Origin: Roseibium sp. TrichSKD4
GTDB taxonomy: Bacteria > Pseudomonadota > Alphaproteobacteria > Rhizobiales > Stappiaceae
Assembly: GCF_000148725.1 (NCBI RefSeq)
Contig: NZ_GL476311.1
Coordinates: 193,501-257,500, forward strand
DNA: 64,000 nt
Reading direction: 5' to 3'
A program made the translations under genes and the position numbers. Positions 55,288-63,941 of this stretch are shown here, one piece after another (the stretch's first letter is position 1; each line of letters begins with the position of its first letter). The notes under the pieces were generated by a model that saw only the letters and a list, made by a program, of their open reading frames with translations, had not been told where the DNA came from and did no database searches.

Positions 55288-56280
55288 TCAGGCGTTGACG
55301 TCGACGACAACGCGGCCTTTGACCTGACCTTTCAGGATGGCCTTGCCGAGGTCCGGCAGATCAGACAGCGTGGCTGGCTGAATCATTTCATGAAGCTTGT
55401 CGAGCGGCAGGTCGGTTGCCAAACGGTTCCATGCGCGCACACGGGCATCATAGGGCTTCATGACGCTGTCAATGCCAAGAAGGTTTACCCCGCGCAGCAG
55501 GAACGGGATGACTGTTGCTGGCAAATCCGCACCACCTGCAAGGCCAACCGCCGCGACAGAAGAGCCGTATTTCATCTGTCCGAGAACGCGGGCAAGCATG
55601 GCTCCGCCAACAGCGTCCACACATCCGGCCCAGGTTTCTGCTTCCAGTGGGCGTTTGACGGTCTCATTGATTTCATCACGGGCGATGACACGATCAGCAC
55701 CAAGGCCTCGAATGTAATCTGTTGTTTCAGGGCGGCCCGTCACGCCGACCACTTCATACCCCAGCTTGGCAAGAATGGCGGTGGCGACAGACCCGACGCC
55801 ACCTGCTGCACCGGTCACCAGAACTGGGCCGTTTTCCGGTTTCAGGCCATGATCTTCCAATGCCATGACGGCGAGCATTGCAGTGAAGCCGGCTGTGCCA
55901 ATGGCCATAGCATCGCGCGTGGTCAACCCGTCTGGAAGCGGAACCAGCCATTCGCCTTTTACGGATGCCTTTTGGGAGTAGCCGCCCCACCAAGCCTCAC
56001 CAACGCGCCAACCAGTGAGCACTACCTTGTCACCTGGCTTGTACCATTCGTCTTCAGAACCCTCGACGGTTCCCGCAAAGTCGATACCCGGAACATGTGG
56101 GTAATTGCGCACCAAGCCACCGCCCGGCCCAACGCACAATCCGTCCTTGTAGTTGACGGTCGAATATTCGACAGCCACCTTCACATTCGCATCCGGAAGC
56201 TGGTTGTCTTCCAGATCAGTGACAGCCGCGCTGGTCTTGCCGTCCTCGTTCCTGGTGACGAGCAATGCTTTGAAAGTCAT
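55288..56280 (-). CDS. acuI: Acryloyl-CoA reductase AcuI
   Basis: A 330-residue MDR-family oxidoreductase. 'EYSTVNYKDGLCVGPGGG' and 'GIDFAGTVEGSEDEWYKPGD' mark the N-terminal domain, and 'VLVTGAAGGVGSVATAILAK' the NADPH Rossmann fold. AcuI reduces acryloyl-CoA to propionyl-CoA, which detoxifies acrylate from DMSP lysis. It is 35 bases downstream of the dmdB-like gene, starts after GAGGAAATG, and closes the operon. dmdA-acuI pairing is known from roseobacters. Confidence 0.92.
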   Translation of the reverse strand: MTFKALLVTRNEDGKTSAAVTDLEDNQLPDANVKVAVEYSTVNYKDGLCVGPGGGLVRNYPHVPGIDFAGTVEGSEDEWYKPGDKVVLTGWRVGEAWWGGYSQKASVKGEWLVPLPDGLTTRDAMAIGTAGFTAMLAVMALEDHGLKPENGPVLVTGAAGGVGSVATAILAKLGYEVVGVTGRPETTDYIRGLGADRVIARDEINETVKRPLEAETWAGCVDAVGGAMLARVLGQMKYGSSVAAVGLAGGADLPATVIPFLLRGVNLLGIDSVMKPYDARVRAWNRLATDLPLDKLHEMIQPATLSDLPDLGKAILKGQVKGRVVVDVNA

Positions 56281-56315
56281 GGTGACATTTCCTCAATATT
56301 GGCCTTCAGTTCAGG

Positions 56316-57956
56316 CTAGGTATCATCTGCGCCTTGGGCAGCATCTTGTGCGCGCTGGCGCAGGACAAACTTTTGAATTTTTCCGGTGGCCGTTTTCGGC
56401 AACTCGCCAAAAACAACCTCTTTGGGGCGTTTGAAGCCCGCCATGTTCTGGCGACTGAAGTCGATCAACTCTTCCGCGCTGATGTCTGCATCCGGTTTTA
56501 GCTCCACGAAGGCGCAAGGCACTTCGCCCCATTTCTCATCCGGTTTGGCGACAACCGCGGCGGCAGCCACGGCCGGGTGCTTATAAAGTACACCTTCCAC
56601 CTCAACGGACGAGATGTTTTCGCCGCCAGAGATGATCACGTCCTTGAGGCGATCCTTGATCTGAATATAGCCATTGGGATGGCGCACAGCCGCATCACCA
56701 CTCTTGAAACGTCCACCTGCAAATGCCTGGGCAGTGGCGTTCGGGTCTTTGTAATAGCCCTTCATCACGGTGTTGCCCTGCAGGACAATCTCACCTTGTG
56801 TTTCTCCGTCCCATGGCACTGGTTGGCCGGTTTCCCGGTCAAGGACATCGGCCTCTTCGGTCATGGGGAATGCAACACCCTGCCAGCTTTGGACCTCTGC
56901 CTGCTCAGAAGCACTGAGGTCGTCCCATTCCTCGCGCCACAGGCATTGGGTGACATGGCCATAGGTTTCGGTCAGCCCATAAACCTGCATGACTTCAAAG
57001 CCGAGGGCTTTGGTGGCCTCCAGCACGGCAGCCGGCGGCGGAGCTCCTGCCGTCATGACTTTTACCGGATGTTGGAGCGGACGTTTATCTTCGTCGGCTG
57101 CGTTGATCAGCATGGACAAAACGATTGGCGCGCCGCCCAGATGGGTAACCCCATGTTCTTCAATGGCAGCGAAAATGTTCTTGGCCGTGACGGCCCGCAG
57201 GCAGACAAATGTTCCTGCCAGCAGGGTCATAGTCCAGGCATGTCCCCATCCGTTGCAGTGAAACATTGGAACGGAATACAGATAGACCGGGTGGCGGGGC
57301 AATTCCCATGCGATCGGTGTTCCGAGCGACATCAAATATGAGCCACGGTGATGATAGACCACGCCTTTCGGCCTGCCTGAAGTCCCAGATGTGTAGTTCA
57401 GGGACAGGGCCTGCCATTCATCGGTCGGTCCCTGCCAAGCGAAACCGGCGTCCCCGTTTTCAATCAGGTCCTCATAGGTCTGAGTGCCCAAACGTTTTCC
57501 GCCAGGTCCTGCCGCATCCACGATATCTATGACCAGAAGCGGCCGGTTGGCACTTTGAATGGCCGGTCCCATCACTTTGTGAAACGCGGTGTCAGTTACG
57601 ATGGCTTTTGCGTCCCCGTGATCAAGAATGTAGGCGACCGTATCCACCTCCAGCCGGGTGTTGATGGTGTTTAATACGGCCCCGATCATTGGCACGGCGA
57701 AGTGGAGTTCGAACAACTCGGGTGTGTTAGCGGCCATGACGGCCACCGTATCGCCTTGACCTACGCCGAGCCTTTGCAAGGACGAAGCGAGCTTGCAGAT
57801 CCTCTCATAGGTTTCTCGCCAGCTCGCCTGATAGTCGCCGTAGATCACGGCGACGCGGTCCGGGAAAATCGAGACTGTCCGTTTCAAAAATGAAAGTGGC
57901 GACAGGGCAACATGGTTTGCGTCGGTCTTCTCGAACGCCTCGAAATTCTCGCGCAT
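56316..57956 (-). CDS. dmdB: Acyl-CoA synthetase, methylmercaptopropionate-CoA ligase (DmdB)-like
   Basis: A 546-residue ANL ligase. The AMP-binding loop is 'LNYTSGTSGRPKGVVYHHRG', with 'YGLTETYGHVTQC' (A5), 'GGRFKSGDAAVRHPNGYIQI' (A7) and 'LPKTATGKIQKF' with the A10 lysine. DmdB makes MMPA-CoA, the second step after DMSP demethylation; the assignment rests on position next to dmdA and overall similarity to that class. ATG 57956 follows GGAGGACTGAG and is 1 base from the dmdA stop. A longer start overlapping dmdA is less likely. Confidence 0.85.
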   Translation of the reverse strand: MRENFEAFEKTDANHVALSPLSFLKRTVSIFPDRVAVIYGDYQASWRETYERICKLASSLQRLGVGQGDTVAVMAANTPELFELHFAVPMIGAVLNTINTRLEVDTVAYILDHGDAKAIVTDTAFHKVMGPAIQSANRPLLVIDIVDAAGPGGKRLGTQTYEDLIENGDAGFAWQGPTDEWQALSLNYTSGTSGRPKGVVYHHRGSYLMSLGTPIAWELPRHPVYLYSVPMFHCNGWGHAWTMTLLAGTFVCLRAVTAKNIFAAIEEHGVTHLGGAPIVLSMLINAADEDKRPLQHPVKVMTAGAPPPAAVLEATKALGFEVMQVYGLTETYGHVTQCLWREEWDDLSASEQAEVQSWQGVAFPMTEEADVLDRETGQPVPWDGETQGEIVLQGNTVMKGYYKDPNATAQAFAGGRFKSGDAAVRHPNGYIQIKDRLKDVIISGGENISSVEVEGVLYKHPAVAAAAVVAKPDEKWGEVPCAFVELKPDADISAEELIDFSRQNMAGFKRPKEVVFGELPKTATGKIQKFVLRQRAQDAAQGADDT

Positions 57957-57957
57957 C

Positions 57958-59091
57958 TCAGTCCTCCTGATCGGAAAACGGCTTTTCCCAGACAGTCGCC
58001 GTGCGAATGCCGTCCGGTGTTTCCACTTCCACCCGCGTACCATTGTCCCAATGGGTCATGCGGACCATGCCGATGGCGACATTGGTTCGAAAGTCGGGTG
58101 ACCAGGCTGCCGAGCTGACGTTGCCGACCTTTTTGCCACCGGCAAAGATGGGCCAGAGGTCTTTGCAGGGCGGAACGGGGTCGCCATCAATCGCCAGATG
58201 CCGGATTTGGCGCACCGGGCCTTCAACAGCAACACGCAACAAGGCGTCACGGCCCACACAGCCAATGGCCTTTTGGGTCTGACAGAATTTGCCGAGGCCA
58301 CACTCGTGTGGTGTGTTGTTGCGGGTCATGTCGTTGCCGTAAGACAGCAGCCCGCTTTCAATCCGCTCGATCAGATTGGGGCAGCCTGCGCGAACGTTGA
58401 GGTCTTCGCCTGCCTTCATGAAGGCATCCCAAAGCGGCTCGCCGTTGTGGCTACCGTCGACATAGAACTCAAATCCGCCCTGCTTGGAATAGCCAGACCG
58501 CGCCAGCACCATGTGTTGACCCTGGAACTGGACATACTCATAGCGAAAGAATCCGATCGAGCGGATTTGATCGCCAAAGACGCGTGCAACCAGATCTTCA
58601 GCCTTCGGGCCCTGGATGGCGAGCGGAGACACATCTGGCTCATCCACATCCACCTCAAGACGCAAGGCGTAGGCCAGCCCCTTGATCCAGTAGAGCAAAT
58701 CGCTGTCGGCAATGGACACCCAATACCGGTCTTCGGCCAGCTTCAAGGCTACGGGGTCATTCAGCATGCCGCCGGTTTCATCCACCATTGGGGTGTAGAA
58801 ACAACGACCAACCGTAAGGTTGCTGAGATCGCGCGGCGTCAGCATCTGGGCCAGACGGCCGGCATCCGGACCGACCAGTTCCACCTGTCGCTCACACGAC
58901 ACGTCCCACAGTTGGACGTGTTTCTTCAGGTGATGATAATCTGCCTCCACCGACTCAAAAACAGTCGGCAGAAGCATGTGGTTATAGACCGTGTACGCCT
59001 TTACCCCCGCCTCGGTAACTCGGCGGGTGAACGGAGTGGAACGGGTGCGGCGGGATACCGCGAGAAAGGGAAGCTGAACCGCTTGCTGCAT
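57958..59091 (-). CDS. dmdA: Dimethylsulfoniopropionate demethylase DmdA
   Basis: A 377-residue GcvT-fold, tetrahydrofolate-dependent enzyme. Diagnostic stretches shared with the SAR11 and roseobacter DmdA are SRRTRSTPFT (residues 13-22), KAYTVYNHMLLPT (31-43), 'WDVSCERQVE' (62-71) and GCPNLIERIESGLLSYGND (236-254). It moves one methyl from DMSP to THF, giving methylmercaptopropionate. It is 17 bases downstream of the DUF1326 gene and 1 base upstream of the CoA ligase, so it is inside a tight operon. The length is in the DmdA range, slightly longer at the N-terminus. Confidence 0.94.
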   Translation of the reverse strand: MQQAVQLPFLAVSRRTRSTPFTRRVTEAGVKAYTVYNHMLLPTVFESVEADYHHLKKHVQLWDVSCERQVELVGPDAGRLAQMLTPRDLSNLTVGRCFYTPMVDETGGMLNDPVALKLAEDRYWVSIADSDLLYWIKGLAYALRLEVDVDEPDVSPLAIQGPKAEDLVARVFGDQIRSIGFFRYEYVQFQGQHMVLARSGYSKQGGFEFYVDGSHNGEPLWDAFMKAGEDLNVRAGCPNLIERIESGLLSYGNDMTRNNTPHECGLGKFCQTQKAIGCVGRDALLRVAVEGPVRQIRHLAIDGDPVPPCKDLWPIFAGGKKVGNVSSAAWSPDFRTNVAIGMVRMTHWDNGTRVEVETPDGIRTATVWEKPFSDQED

Positions 59092-59108
59092 GTCCCCGAA
59101 CCTTGTCT

Positions 59109-59735
59109 TTATGCTGCGTCAGCTGCGGCTGGTCCGGACCAGTCGATTTGACAGATTTCAGCGCTGCGCCCATCAAAGTCCCACACGCGCCCGTAAGCAC
59201 GCACGCGGCCCTGTGTGGCTGTGGCAACAGTGATGTCGGATCCCATCCAGTATTCGGTGTTGGTGACGACAATGTCTTCGTCAGGATTCGACCCGGTGAC
59301 CGGGACAACTTCACCCTTGATGGCCTTGCCGACGATCAAACGGCGCTTTTTACCTTCGTTTTCGTAAGTCACCGGCGCGCGTTCGGCACCGAGGAATTCG
59401 CTGACGAGTACGCGGAACAGGCCGGTTGTGCCCTTGGCTTCGCCGGAGAAGATCTTGACCAATGCGTCAAAGGCTTCATCGCTGGCGCGCTCATCAATGT
59501 AAGCGGCCGCTTTCCAGTTCCCACGTGCCATCAGGCCCGGAATTTCCAGAACCAGGCCCACATTCAGGCCGGACAGGTCGATGCCTTCATAGTGGCCCTC
59601 GTCGATGCGAACACCGGACCAAGCCTGACAATATCCTTCCGTGGGCGGGTGCTTGCCAAGCGAAACAACACACGGACAGAAGACCGTGCAGTTGCAGTTC
59701 AAAATCAGTTCGCCCTTGATCGACCATCCGGTCAT
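59109..59735 (-). CDS. DUF1326 Cys-rich protein
   Basis: A 208-residue DUF1326 protein, with no signal peptide. The N-terminus has a putative metal site: Cys14, Cys16, Cys20 and Cys22 in 'CNCTVFCPC', then His29 and Cys36. The rest is mostly beta ('GLNVGLVLEIPGLMARGNW'). DUF1326 genes often pair with DUF2182 genes, as here, and the pair is usually described as metal-binding, but no role is proven. It is 12 bases downstream of the DUF2182 gene and 17 upstream of dmdA, so it is translated with the DMSP enzymes. Confidence 0.88.
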   Translation of the reverse strand: MTGWSIKGELILNCNCTVFCPCVVSLGKHPPTEGYCQAWSGVRIDEGHYEGIDLSGLNVGLVLEIPGLMARGNWKAAAYIDERASDEAFDALVKIFSGEAKGTTGLFRVLVSEFLGAERAPVTYENEGKKRRLIVGKAIKGEVVPVTGSNPDEDIVVTNTEYWMGSDITVATATQGRVRAYGRVWDFDGRSAEICQIDWSGPAAADAA

Positions 59736-59747
59736 GGCGTGCTCTCC

Positions 59748-60542
59748 CTATGTCAGAGGTCCGTATTCGATAAAGAGTGTGAGCGCGGCTGCAAAAAGCA
59801 GGGCCGCGCCAAGTGGCGCGCTTACCCGCGCGCCGATTTGTGGAAGTTTTTCCAGAACCATCAGAACTGTAGCCAGTCCCATGAAGGCCAGATTCATCGT
59901 GCCAGCAACAAACGCGAGCAGCATGAGCGCCCAGCAGCAGGCAAGGCAAATCGCGCCGAGACGCAGGCCCATCATGAAGGCGCCACTCACCCCCTCGCGC
60001 CAATTGGCCATGAAGAACATCAGCGGACTGCGGCAGCTGTTAAGGCAGGCTTCTTTCAATGAACTGAATTGGTAAGCTCCAGCCAGCGCGAGCAAAAACG
60101 CATTGAACAACGGAAGCAGGCTCCGTCCTTCCATGTCGAGAATATTCGCGCTCGCCAGCAGGATTTGCGCTCCGGCGGCGAGTAGGGAAAAGCCAAACCA
60201 GATCAAGAGGTATCCGCCAAACAGAGAAACGAACCCGCGACTTCCAAGATGCGCGGCGGACGGCAGCTCGCTGTAAGTTTTCAGAGCTGGAAGGGAGGTT
60301 GGTGCCATCATGGCGAAGGACATCAAAGCCCACATCGCAAAGGCGACCGGATATCCGGCAGTGCTTGCACTGGTCTGGCATAGGGCGAGAAGGGCCTGCA
60401 TAGCTCCGCCCTGCCAAACCGGGCCGGACAGCTCCAGACCTGGTTGCATGGCAAACAGGATCGCCCAAGCAAGCAAAATGCTGCTGAAAAACAGCAGCCA
60501 GCCTGCCTGCCGATCAACATATTGGCGCAGCCAGAAGTGCAC
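59748..60542 (-). CDS. DUF2182 predicted metal-binding membrane protein
   Basis: About 264 residues with six or so membrane segments. Family signatures are 'WALMSFAMMAPTSLPALKTY', 'EACLNSCRSPLMFF' with two cysteines, and 'LGAICLACCWALMLLAFVAG' with three. The GTG at 60542 is chosen because GGGAGGA lies just upstream; a longer TTG start (60599) would put the start inside the upstream operator. First gene of the operon, divergent from gntR. Confidence 0.86.
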   Translation of the reverse strand: MHFWLRQYVDRQAGWLLFFSSILLAWAILFAMQPGLELSGPVWQGGAMQALLALCQTSASTAGYPVAFAMWALMSFAMMAPTSLPALKTYSELPSAAHLGSRGFVSLFGGYLLIWFGFSLLAAGAQILLASANILDMEGRSLLPLFNAFLLALAGAYQFSSLKEACLNSCRSPLMFFMANWREGVSGAFMMGLRLGAICLACCWALMLLAFVAGTMNLAFMGLATVLMVLEKLPQIGARVSAPLGAALLFAAALTLFIEYGPLT

Positions 60543-60590
60543 ACGTTCCTCCCGTAACGTCTTTGCAGTTACGCTGTCCTGCTTAAGACT

Positions 60591-60620
60591 AAATGTCAAA
60601 CATTTAATTGTCAGACATTT
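60591..60620. promoter_or_regulatory. Tandem 15-bp palindromes, candidate GntR operator
   Basis: AAATGTCAAACATTT (60591-60605) and AATTGTCAGACATTT (60606-60620) lie directly next to each other. Both have a TGT-N3-ACA core; the second core TGTCAGACA is a perfect odd palindrome. FadR-type GntR proteins are known to bind operators of the TNGTNNNACNA form. The sites lie between the divergent gntR and DUF2182 genes, 49 bases upstream of the latter's start. Confidence 0.7.
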
Positions 60621-60631
60621 ATACTTTTACG

Positions 60632-60660
60632 TTGACCCATGTCGCGTGTAGGCCTAAATT
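60632..60660 (+). promoter_or_regulatory. Candidate promoter of gntR
   Basis: TTGACC (60632-60637) and TAAATT (60655-60660) are separated by 17 bases and lie 22 bases upstream of the gntR start. The palindromic operators lie just upstream of the -35, so they could mediate control of both directions. Confidence 0.4.
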
Positions 60661-60681
60661 TGGCGGAATTCCAGAGGACTT

Positions 60682-61473
60682 GTGTGGAGAGATCTGTTGG
60701 TGATTGAATTCAGTTCCATTCGAAAAGAAGGCCTGTCGGTTCAAATCGCCAATGCCATTCGCACTGCTATCATCGATGGTCATCTGGTTGTCGAAGAGCG
60801 GCTGCCGAGTGAAGCCGAGCTGTCTGAGAGGTTCGAGGTCAGCCGGTCAACGGTTCGTGAAGCGCTCAAGCGGCTTGCGGCTCAAAATCTTATTCGAAGT
60901 GAAAGAGGGTCGTCCGGTGGAGCTTTCGTGAACCGGATCACCCATGATGAGGCACAAGAAAGCCTCGTTACAACCTTGCGCTTGATGATTGGCATGAACA
61001 ACATCGCGTTTGAAGAGGCAATTGAATCTCGCTTTACGCTTGAATCAGCGTGTCTCGGATTGGCGGCCAATCGGCGCAGTGATGACGATTTGGCTGACCT
61101 TCGGGCAGAACTGCAGCACCAGAGGTCCGGGTCTATCAGTGATGAAGATTTCTGCGCTTCTGATGTTGCCTTTCACAGCATTATTGGGCGGTCGACCGGG
61201 AACCCATTGCTCGCCTTTCAAATGGCTGGGGCGGTTGAGGCGATGCAGCCTTTGATGAATATGCTTGTCTATCGCTTGCGGGATCGCCAGCGAATTACGG
61301 ACCTCCATGCGGCAATAGCTGATGCACTTGAAGCCAAGGATGCAGATGCAGCGTGGCAGCACCTGGAGGCATTGGCGTCTTATACCCGCGAATTGGCTGA
61401 TCAACGACGGGCCCCTCGGCTCAACGGCCCCAAAGTGGGAAATGGTGCCGCTCCTGAACCGGCGAGCGTCTAG
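60682..61473 (+). CDS. GntR-family regulator, FadR subfamily
   Basis: A 263-residue regulator. The winged helix (residues ~10-75) has 'LPSEAELSERFEVSRSTVRE' and 'LAAQNLIRSERGSSGGAFV'. The C-terminal ligand domain is FCD-like, with 'ESRFTLESACLGLAANR' and 'VAFHSIIGRSTGNPLLAFQM'. FCD regulators sense carboxylates or acyl compounds. It probably controls its own promoter and the divergent DMSP operon via the tandem palindromes. The GTG at 60682 follows AGAGGA; GTG 60700 is a second choice. Confidence 0.92.
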   Translation: MWRDLLVIEFSSIRKEGLSVQIANAIRTAIIDGHLVVEERLPSEAELSERFEVSRSTVREALKRLAAQNLIRSERGSSGGAFVNRITHDEAQESLVTTLRLMIGMNNIAFEEAIESRFTLESACLGLAANRRSDDDLADLRAELQHQRSGSISDEDFCASDVAFHSIIGRSTGNPLLAFQMAGAVEAMQPLMNMLVYRLRDRQRITDLHAAIADALEAKDADAAWQHLEALASYTRELADQRRAPRLNGPKVGNGAAPEPASV

Positions 61474-61548: not shown

Positions 61549-61926
61549 GTGATTACGGTTTATTATGACGGGAAATGTGGATTGTGTTCGCGGGAAATTG
61601 GCTATTTCCGAAAGCGGACACCCAAGCGGCCAATCGTTTTTCATGACATTGCCAAGCAGCCGGATGTGTTGGAACGTCTCGGGATCTCGCAAGCAGATGC
61701 GCTATTGTATTTTCATGTTGAGGACGAAGACGGGCAGCTTCAGTCCGGTGTCAGAGCATTCGCGTTGATGTGGGGCCAATATCGGGGATGGCGTGTGTTG
61801 GCCAAACTTGTTGTCTTGCCTGGCGTGCGACCTTTCGTTGACATGATTTATCGAAAGTTCGCGCATATGCGCTTCGCGCGCTACCCGCATTGCAAAGCCT
61901 CTCTGGCTTTGGACGCGCAAAACTGA
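61549..61926 (+). CDS. DCC family (DUF393) thiol-disulfide oxidoreductase-like protein
   Basis: A 125-residue protein. It begins with 'VYYDGKCGLCSREI', the DxxCxxC signature that gives the family its DCC name, and continues as a thioredoxin-like fold. The partner is unknown. Starts at GTG after GAGG. Same strand as gntR and 75 bases downstream. Confidence 0.88.
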   Translation: MITVYYDGKCGLCSREIGYFRKRTPKRPIVFHDIAKQPDVLERLGISQADALLYFHVEDEDGQLQSGVRAFALMWGQYRGWRVLAKLVVLPGVRPFVDMIYRKFAHMRFARYPHCKASLALDAQN

Positions 61927-62064
61927 GAGCTGCAGACAGACCCATGAGATATTAATTGCCCATGGGTCGTCACAAACTCGTCACACCGGTATAGTACGAG
62001 CAGCCTTCCTTGATGCGGAGAGGCGTGCCTCCGGCATCGCTTACCCTTCGCTGAGCGCTTCATC

Positions 62065-62799
62065 ATGCGGTATGCCATCTATTTTGCCGGCCCGACCGGT
62101 GATCCTTTGATGGACTTGGGAAACCAATGGCTTGGTCGGAATGTTTTTTCCGGTGCGCCCTTGGTACAGCCCACTGTGTCGGATGTTCTGCCCACCCGTC
62201 TTGCAGAGCTGACTGCTGATCCTCGTCGCTATGGCTTCCATGGAACGTTGAAAGCGCCCTTTGCGCTCGCAAACGACAAAACCGAAGCGGATCTTGTTGC
62301 TGCCTGTCAGGTCTTTGCCGGCTCGGTTGCACCCTTTGAAACTACGGGGCTTCATGTCAGCAAGCTTGGCAAGTTTTTGGCACTTACCCCAATCGGGGAA
62401 GATGAGGAATTACAATCTTTTGCTGGCTTGTGCGTGCGAACATTTGAACAGTTTCGCGCGCCGCTGCCTGCCAATGATTTGGCACGTCGACGCCAATCTG
62501 GCCTGAGCCATCGACAGGATCGGCATCTCGTCGCTTGGGGATATCCGTACATTTTCGACGAGTTCCGGTTTCACATGACTTTGACCGGCAAACTGCAGGA
62601 CAGTGATGAAGCTGACGCATTGGAGCGGGCTGCGAAGATCCACTTCTGCGAAGTGGTCGGATTGCGCCGCACTTGCTCCACGGTTGGCCTTTATGTCGAA
62701 CCAGAACGCGGTGCCCCGTTTCAGGTTCACACCATTTTCGACTTAACCGGGACAGTGCCGCCTGAGCAGTTGGCTGTCCGATCCGAGGAGGTCCAATGA
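62065..62799 (+). CDS. DUF1045 phosphonate-metabolism protein (2H phosphoesterase-like)
   Basis: A 244-residue protein with two HxTL motifs, 'YGFHGTLKAPF' near residue 55 and 'FRFHMTLTGK' near 170, as in 2H phosphoesterases. The family is usually found in phn gene clusters, and its substrate is probably a cyclic or linear ribose phosphate of the C-P lyase route. Its stop overlaps the phnM start (ATGA). Confidence 0.88.
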   Translation: MRYAIYFAGPTGDPLMDLGNQWLGRNVFSGAPLVQPTVSDVLPTRLAELTADPRRYGFHGTLKAPFALANDKTEADLVAACQVFAGSVAPFETTGLHVSKLGKFLALTPIGEDEELQSFAGLCVRTFEQFRAPLPANDLARRRQSGLSHRQDRHLVAWGYPYIFDEFRFHMTLTGKLQDSDEADALERAAKIHFCEVVGLRRTCSTVGLYVEPERGAPFQVHTIFDLTGTVPPEQLAVRSEEVQ

Positions 62800-63941
62800 G
62801 CGTCCCAGCTGCCGTCTTTAAAAATGCCCTATTGATCCTTTCTGATGAGGTTCACGAAGGAAGCCTGAGAGCTGATGCTGAGGGCCGGATCACTGATATA
62901 GACGGGCCGACAGCGACCGCCGGATATGACTGTGAAGGCGATTACTTGTTGCCTGGTTTGGTGGAGCTTCATACCGATCATTTGGAATGCCACTACGCGC
63001 CGCGCCCGAAGGTGCGATGGAATCCGGTTTCTGCGGTTCAGGCCCATGACGCTCAAATCGCCTGTTCCGGCATAACGACCGTATTCGATGCCCTTCGGGT
63101 TGGCATGGACGATGATGCTGACCTTCGAGCTCCGGATATGCGCGCCCTTGCTGATGCGATTGAAACGGGATTGGCCGAACATCGGTTGCGCGCAGACCAC
63201 TTCCTGCATCTGCGCTGCGAAGTGTCTGCCCCGGATGTGTTGGATGCTTTCACCTTTTTTGAAGGTGATGATCGCGTTCGCCTGATTTCCCTGATGGACC
63301 ATACGCCCGGTCAACGTCAGTTTGTGTCTCTGGATTCTTTCCGCGCTTATTACATGGGTAAGAAGGGCTACAATGATGCGCAAATGGATGCGTTCATTGA
63401 AGAGCGCAAAGCCCGTGCAGACAAAAACGCCCCGGAAAACCGGAAGAAAATTGCAAGGTATGCGCAGGCGCGAAATATCTCCATTGCCAGCCACGATGAT
63501 GCAACGATGGATCACGTGGATGAGGCCGTTGATCTGAAAACGGCGATTGCAGAATTTCCAACGACAGTTGAAGCTGCCAAGGCCTCCAAGGCCAACAATA
63601 TGGCGGTGTTGATGGGTGCTCCGAATGTGGTGCGTGGCGGGTCGCACTCCGGCAATGTATCTGCGAGAGAGTTGGCGGAAGAGGGGTGTCTGGACGTTCT
63701 GTCTTCTGATTATGTTCCAATTTCACTTGTGCAGGCTGCCTTCCAGTTGGCAGAGGAAGTTGACGCCATCACGCTGCCAAAGGCCATCGCAACTGTTACC
63801 TCCACCCCAGCAGAAGCCATTGGATTGACGGACCGGGGGCGTCTTGAAGTGGGCCGCCGAGCCGACCTTGTTCAGGTGCGGGTCGTTGGCAATGTGCCTA
63901 TTATTCGCGGCGTGTGGCGCGAAGGGCGGCGTGTGGCCTGA
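62796..63941 (+). CDS. phnM: Alpha-D-ribose 1-methylphosphonate 5-triphosphate diphosphatase PhnM
   Basis: A 381-residue amidohydrolase. 'LLPGLVELHTDHLECHYAPR' holds the HxD/H metal motif, and 'ISIASHDDATMDHVDEA' and 'LSSDYVPISLVQAAF' carry other ligands. PhnM removes pyrophosphate from the C-P lyase intermediate. The core lyase genes phnGHIJ are not in this window and may lie elsewhere. Confidence 0.95.
   Translation: MSVPAAVFKNALLILSDEVHEGSLRADAEGRITDIDGPTATAGYDCEGDYLLPGLVELHTDHLECHYAPRPKVRWNPVSAVQAHDAQIACSGITTVFDALRVGMDDDADLRAPDMRALADAIETGLAEHRLRADHFLHLRCEVSAPDVLDAFTFFEGDDRVRLISLMDHTPGQRQFVSLDSFRAYYMGKKGYNDAQMDAFIEERKARADKNAPENRKKIARYAQARNISIASHDDATMDHVDEAVDLKTAIAEFPTTVEAAKASKANNMAVLMGAPNVVRGGSHSGNVSARELAEEGCLDVLSSDYVPISLVQAAFQLAEEVDAITLPKAIATVTSTPAEAIGLTDRGRLEVGRRADLVQVRVVGNVPIIRGVWREGRRVA

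Follow-up and report, generated by a model that had tools for sequence, protein, structure and literature searches.

Demethylation of dimethylsulfoniopropionate (DMSP) is a large flux of the marine sulfur cycle, and several described systems resemble the locus analysed below. Most of the DMSP flux goes through demethylation. In roseobacters the demethylase gene dmdA and acuI have been described as a two-gene unit, with dmdA directly or nearly upstream of acuI; in R. pomeroyi, DMSP and acrylate raise the expression of this operon about 10-14-fold, and methylmercaptopropionate (MMPA) does not (Todd et al. 2012, PMC3338564). The mtoX-SCO1-mauG cluster links a copper chaperone gene to a gene of DMSP sulfur, MtoX being a copper-dependent, periplasmic methanethiol oxidase whose gene is often accompanied by its own SCO1/SenC chaperone gene (PMC5739008). 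PpoB2 of Marinomonas mediterranea (COG5486/PF09948), which is encoded with a tyrosinase, passes copper to a tyrosinase (PMC2855505). Here we analysed 64,000 nucleotides of Roseibium sp. TrichSKD4 (contig NZ_GL476311.1, positions 193,501 to 257,500; hereafter the window), in which dmdA and acuI lie in a probable operon led by a pair of genes for DUF2182 (PF09948) and DUF1326 (PF07040), divergent from a gntR regulator gene.

As in the roseobacter operon, dmdA and acuI of the window are co-oriented, but a single ligase gene stands between them and the DUF2182-DUF1326 pair leads the operon; the accessible part of the roseobacter account mentions neither the pair nor the operator described below (PMC3338564). 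Profile matches recovered all six genes where a preliminary description of this DNA, made from the letters alone, had placed them (Table 1), and its view that the pair falls outside the textbook DMSP pathway held up. The five minus-strand genes, DUF2182, DUF1326, dmdA, ligase and acuI, run from 60542 to 55288 with gaps of exactly 12, 17, 1 and 35 bases, and a simple consensus scan of the window found no terminator-like match between them, all minus-strand matches being intragenic. They probably form one transcription unit, as had been proposed. The listed DUF2182 open reading frame starts at a TTG (60599) within the predicted operator; the GTG at 60542, with GGAGG five bases ahead, is most likely the true start. 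The pair, dmdA and acuI lie co-oriented behind one operator by the divergent gntR, and comparison between genomes shows that the pair is a member of the operon.

The pair-bearing operon is not a local oddity and is found far more widely than the preliminary description supposed. We sampled 244 Rhodobacterales genomes, an even draw from the order in which some may be incomplete, using a simple gene caller (codon log-odds) that missed or trimmed some starts; the Fisher tests reported here treat genomes as independent, with kinship uncorrected. DmdA scored above cut-off in 138 genomes and PF09948 was present in 150, with 127 having both, 11 dmdA only, 23 PF09948 only and 83 neither (p=5e-31). DUF2182 lay within about 6 kb of dmdA in 121 of the 138. 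These comprise 108 genomes among the matches listed, in all of which DUF2182 is upstream of dmdA on the same strand, and 13 whose loci were read directly and carry both pair genes by dmdA (genomes G013, G069, G075, G115, G190, G055, G076, G091, G164, G165, G184, G228 and G242; in the last, DUF2182 matches in two pieces and may be broken). Since random placement would give adjacency in about 0.4 genomes (our own estimate for a 12 kb span and a 4 Mb genome), the association is not due to chance. Rarity of the pair near dmdA in other genomes, which the preliminary description had said would count against its reading, was not observed. In a scan of genome contigs for the best 80 of 362 dmdA relatives, 55 of the 80 loci had the pair in the same orientation no more than 4 kb upstream of dmdA, and it was present in 15/15 Roseibium/Labrenzia-type loci (L001-L012, L014, L022, L036); among the 25 loci lacking it, L016, L021, L034 and L060 end short upstream. 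Laboratory strains with the cassette include Labrenzia sp. THAF82, Litoreibacter arenae DSM 19593 and Roseobacter sp. CCS2 (L022, L071, L077). In a phylum-wide sample, PF09948 was found in only 17 of 150 Pseudomonadota genomes, 16 of them above cut-off.

The two genes form an obligate pair, because PF09948 and PF07040 occupy exactly the same 150 of the 244 Rhodobacterales genomes. Among the matches listed, at least 108 of the 121 genomes have DUF1326 no more than 6 kb from dmdA; of the other 13, G242 and G064 (L057) were read and have DUF1326 by dmdA, and the remaining 11 have it somewhere in the genome. Two types of pair can be told apart. Type A has the order DUF2182-DUF1326, with a DUF1326 50-91% identical to that of the window and a gap of -1 to 240 bases between the genes (median 37.5, 80 loci), while type B is mostly in the reverse order, with about 30-40% identity and no stable neighbours. 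The Rhodobacterales type-A cassette consists of gntR, divergent from DUF2182-DUF1326-(DinB)-[dmdA]-(ligase)-acuI-(BCCT), where the DinB label is Pfam-confirmed on two examples and the BCCT, ChrA and SspB-like labels were assigned by us from sequence. The type-A pair is far commoner with dmdA (121/138) than without it (16/106 seen).

In those 16 of the 244 genomes the type-A pair stands without a DmdA above cut-off (G029, G079, G144 and G169, which carry PF09948 and no dmdA, lay outside this reading). AcuI is nearby in 15, the exception being G089, and in 13 of the 15 it follows the pair in the same orientation. A DUF1326 tree was built from 84 type-A rows, of which 62 have dmdA next to the pair and 22 do not (five of the 22 come from the phylum-wide sample). 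Along this tree the dmdA label switches 14 times, and at least seven of the switches fall on well supported branches; this is a single-gene tree, and cassette transfer could contribute to these changes besides loss or gain of dmdA. AcuI is near the pair in 16 of the 17 dmdA-less Rhodobacterales rows. Furthermore, a divergent DmdA (49-53% identical to the window's) adjoins a 79-83% identical DUF1326 in seven genomes (L208, L209, L217, L218, L220, L221, L222), where dmdA has apparently been replaced in place, and G019 has a divergent DmdA of the same kind without the pair. From the dmdA-less cassettes, the label changes on the tree and the divergent DmdA loci, we conclude that dmdA is the changeable member, gained and lost or replaced, and that gntR, the pair and acuI are mostly kept.

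The regulator gene is divergent in the loci surveyed, with or without the pair, and the gntR upstream regions share a tandem palindrome with the consensus AAATGTCAGACnTTTAAaTGTCTGACAAAT. Predicted operator sites occur in 77 of 88 such regions, a density of 4.2 per kb compared with 0.11 per kb for whole loci, and loci that lack the pair or lack dmdA have the same operator type. A single perfect copy is present in the window, in the space separating gntR from the cassette, and 100 shuffles gave none. A genome-wide search allowing two mismatches found a site in 29 of 34 genomes, with 0 for the reversed control; these genomes were hand-picked from the 80 loci, leaving out Roseobacter loci without the site (L038, L040, L043, L044, L047, L048, L053 and others), so 29/34 is not a natural frequency, and the finding lies in how unique the site is. 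In 29/29 genomes the best site is beside gntR, and one further site, in G275, lies by cassette-unrelated genes. Because the site is near-unique and the best one is always at gntR, the GntR regulon looks like one operon per genome. By analogy with the operon of R. pomeroyi, that of the window may be under acrylate control.

The window DUF2182 scores 193.4 bits against a PF09948 gathering score of 28.7, which places it in the Pfam family of PpoB2, the sole PF09948 relative with a reported function that our literature searches found; whereas PpoB2 is encoded with a tyrosinase (PMC2855505), DUF2182 is encoded with DUF1326 and DMSP genes, and no copper enzyme is in the operon. Its alignment contains the invariant residues W71, M74, M79, P81, Q158, K163, C170, C199, C202, C203 and M216, and its AlphaFold2 model has a predicted local distance difference test score of 91.1. 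In DUF1326, five cysteines (C14, C16, C20, C22, C36) are invariant among 34 aligned sequences, and they gather at one end of a cone-like shape with an acetoacetate-decarboxylase-like fold. We infer that DUF1326 is soluble, that DUF2182 resides in the membrane with Cys and Met inside its helices, that both bind Cu(I), and that the pair has a copper/thiol function. Metal handling, which had been suggested in the preliminary description, is probable given the copper-chaperone family and the invariant Cys and Met residues.

The likeness in fold raises the question of a metabolite rather than a metal. DUF2182 might transport methanethiol, MMPA, acrylate or DMSP, and DUF1326 might bind or convert it, or its cysteines trap acryloyl-CoA; we consider such handling of a sulfur or acid metabolite rather unlikely. 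Acetoacetate decarboxylase catalysis uses a Schiff-base lysine, and although DUF1326 has a fold similar to that of the superfamily (5-10% identity to its rows), no Lys is invariant or even 90% conserved among the 34 sequences and the five-Cys cluster is there instead. The pair is also found away from DMSP genes, and the reported function of PpoB2 is the transfer of copper.

A more specific use of copper would be the loading of MtoX, with the pair as chaperone for the enzyme that removes the methanethiol made from DMSP. The copper dependence of MtoX is consistent with this idea (PMC5739008), as are the eight of 244 genomes in which MtoX lies within 6 kb of DUF2182 and the two further ones with MtoX beside a dmdA copy, together more than we would expect by chance, and the overlap between MtoX and dmdA genomes (76 with both, 62 with dmdA only, 9 with MtoX only and 97 with neither; p=4e-15). 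However, a strong MtoX is missing in 52 of the 121 genomes with the pair beside dmdA, and no association between pair and MtoX was found within the 138 dmdA genomes (69 with both, 52 with the pair only, 7 with MtoX only and 10 with neither; p=0.30). With the 108 adjacent genomes only, the same test gave p=0.02, which rose to 0.30 on adding 13 genomes. Roseibium sediminis, the closest relative of the window found among the best 80 of 362 dmdA relatives (DmdA 92%), has no strong MtoX and only a weak SBP56 match of 154 bits, and the chaperone gene often found with mtoX is of another family and under another regulator (IclR in R. pomeroyi; PMC5739008). We therefore regard MtoX loading as quite unlikely. 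The preliminary description had offered methanethiol as a possible reason for the pair: the proximity of MtoX in eight genomes and the concentration of the pair in dmdA genomes speak for a connection, but a methanethiol-only role is unlikely, because 16 genomes retain the pair although they have no dmdA, and because among dmdA genomes its presence does not depend on MtoX; the lack of induction by MMPA in R. pomeroyi also tells against it. Where MtoX adjoins the cassette, it is followed by a membrane-like protein of about 220 residues with the motif YHGLNPGMGW and no Pfam match (L161:9624-10286, L163:2351-3004).

Tentatively, we prefer to see in the window the version found in Roseibium of a widespread dmdA-acuI operon, one that opens with two genes for a Cu(I)-handling accessory module. 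DUF1326 and DUF2182 would bind Cu(I) and pass it to the membrane, or away through it. Acrylate or a derivative would switch the regulon on, and the module would keep copper safe while acryloyl-CoA attacks thiols and, when dmdA runs, while thiols compete with methanethiol. The neighbouring ligase may make the acyl-CoA for AcuI, perhaps acryloyl-CoA and not MMPA-CoA. With modest confidence we favour such general copper/thiol protection, in cells making acryloyl-CoA and methanethiol, over a chaperone for a single enzyme, because neither MtoX nor the PF16867 lyases (see below) track the pair. In a bolder version, which we think decidedly improbable, DUF1326 would capture a copper-thiolate (Cu-methanethiol, or Cu-glutathione freed as acryloyl-CoA consumes thiols) and hand it to DUF2182, which would be a Cys/Met exporter of a new kind; the GntR would sense acrylate and have its operator essentially once per genome, and the pair would be a missing functional part of DMSP catabolism in most sampled dmdA-bearing Rhodobacterales.

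Several observations weigh against a copper module tied to DMSP. The cassette contains no copper enzyme, and metal binding by the type-A proteins is predicted from sequence. The acrylate-producing DMSP lyases of PF16867 fail to predict the pair, as counted on the 108 adjacent genomes (46 with both, 62 with the pair only, 60 with a lyase only and 76 with neither; p=0.9), and we rejected an acrylate-lyase explanation of the pair on this result. Acrylate inducibility was measured in R. pomeroyi, another strain than that of the window, and at the stringency used the predicted operator is missing in 11 of the 88 gntR upstream regions and 5 of the 34 genomes. In two dmdA-less genomes (G121, G237) acuI is found on the far side of gntR and the pair and is oppositely oriented. 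The pair is dispensable, since 17 of the 138 dmdA genomes have none beside dmdA and 11 of these have no PF09948 at all (G153 was judged by the absence of PF09948 alone, and G082 and G209 have the cassette elsewhere in the genome). G192 retains only a deletion remnant between gntR and dmdA, in which the beginning of DUF2182 is joined in frame to the last part of DUF1326 (L214:5700-6260). Finally, the neighbours of type-B pairs share nothing that points to copper or thiols. This dispensability and the stand-alone type-B pairs without conserved neighbours would also suit a housekeeping copper module that came to lie upstream of dmdA by accident and is merely co-expressed. We hold this to be unlikely in view of the adjacency in 121 of 138 genomes while the dmdA label changes at least seven times on the DUF1326 tree, and of the presence of a separate type-B pair alongside the cassette in at least 10 of the genomes read. 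When PF16867 is split by score only into what we take to be DddL-like and DddQ-like enzymes, the DddL-like lyases are rarer in dmdA genomes (22 with and 116 without, against 38 and 68 in the other genomes; p=0.0005).

The enzymes of the operon were compared with narrower families. DmdA exceeds the cut-off of its equivalog NF009133 by 233 bits, and its best relative in the PDB is 3tfh (367.9 bits). AcuI scores above the TIGR02823 cut-off of 297.25 bits (Table 1) and narrowly below that of the narrower equivalog NF051456 (431.6 against 440), with the AcuI chains 5gxf/5gxe as its closest PDB match (572 bits). The ligase had been called dmdB-like in the preliminary description; it passes NF006020 but misses the 3-(methylthio)propionyl-CoA ligase equivalog NF005426 by 505 bits (316.7 against a cut-off of 822), and DmdB is thus ruled out. 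Fifteen relatives were searched (12 Roseibium/Labrenzia, strain AO1-B, a Kiloniellaceae bacterium and Denitrobaculum), and in all 15 a separate gene scores 711-830 bits for NF005426, above cut-off in 2. The window ligase is possibly an acrylate-CoA ligase. In genome G283 (L147:4673-7795), a ligase of this kind (62% identical to that of the window) comes directly after DUF2182-DUF1326, and the 14.5 kb read contain no dmdA.

We found no description of DUF2182 or DUF1326 in a DMSP operon in the literature searched, which covered neither subscription papers nor preprints, and of the names DUF2182, DUF1326, PF09948, PF07040, COG5486 and COG5588 only COG5486 turned up there. If the copper reading is true, about seven in eight of the dmdA-bearing Rhodobacterales genomes sampled would have a copper-handling pair as an ordinary part of the operon, stress from copper, thiols or electrophiles would be built into DMSP use, and studies in pair-less strains would miss that side of it. 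For two Pfam families that have hardly been studied, the comparison supplies a strict partner, a clear gene neighbourhood, a predicted operator and a phenotype that can be tested.

Table 1. Genes and predicted operator of the pair-bearing dmdA-acuI locus in the window
Feature	Position	Strand	Basis
DUF2182 (PF09948 'PpoB2 copper chaperone' membrane protein), 264 aa	59748..60542	-	PF09948, 4.6e-57
DUF1326 (PF07040), 208 aa	59109..59735	-	PF07040, 5.4e-54
dmdA, DMSP demethylase	57958..59091	-	NF009133, 642.7 bits (cut-off 410)
Acyl-CoA synthetase, NF006020 (PRK08162) subfamily, AMP-binding	56316..57956	-	NF006020, 852 bits (cut-off 677)
acuI, acryloyl-CoA reductase	55288..56280	-	TIGR02823, 446.6 bits
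Predicted GntR operator, tandem TGTCAAACA-N6-TGTCAGACA	60594..60617		Motif searches
GntR/FCD-family regulator, divergent from cassette	60682..61473	+	Profile match; divergent position conserved in other loci

Other genes were seen in and around the cassettes. Many Rhodobacterales cassettes have a DinB-family gene (PF05163), absent from the window, between DUF1326 and dmdA or acuI (L038:9511-10014, L071:9237-9743); the literature searched gave nothing relevant on DinB together with dmdA. A small Cys-containing protein with a hydrophobic N-terminus, with no Pfam match above cut-off, is encoded directly before dmdA in some loci (L071:9743-10000, L080:9753-10001, L049:9735-10007). In four genomes of the phylum-wide sample (L148-L151), the genes after a type-A-like pair are one for a CDP-alcohol phosphatidyltransferase and one that is quinone-oxidoreductase-like (Pfam scan on L148). 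In the window, the region 3' of gntR (61549-63941) encodes a DCC1-like thiol-disulfide oxidoreductase (PF04134), then a DUF1045 phosphonate-operon protein and phnM.

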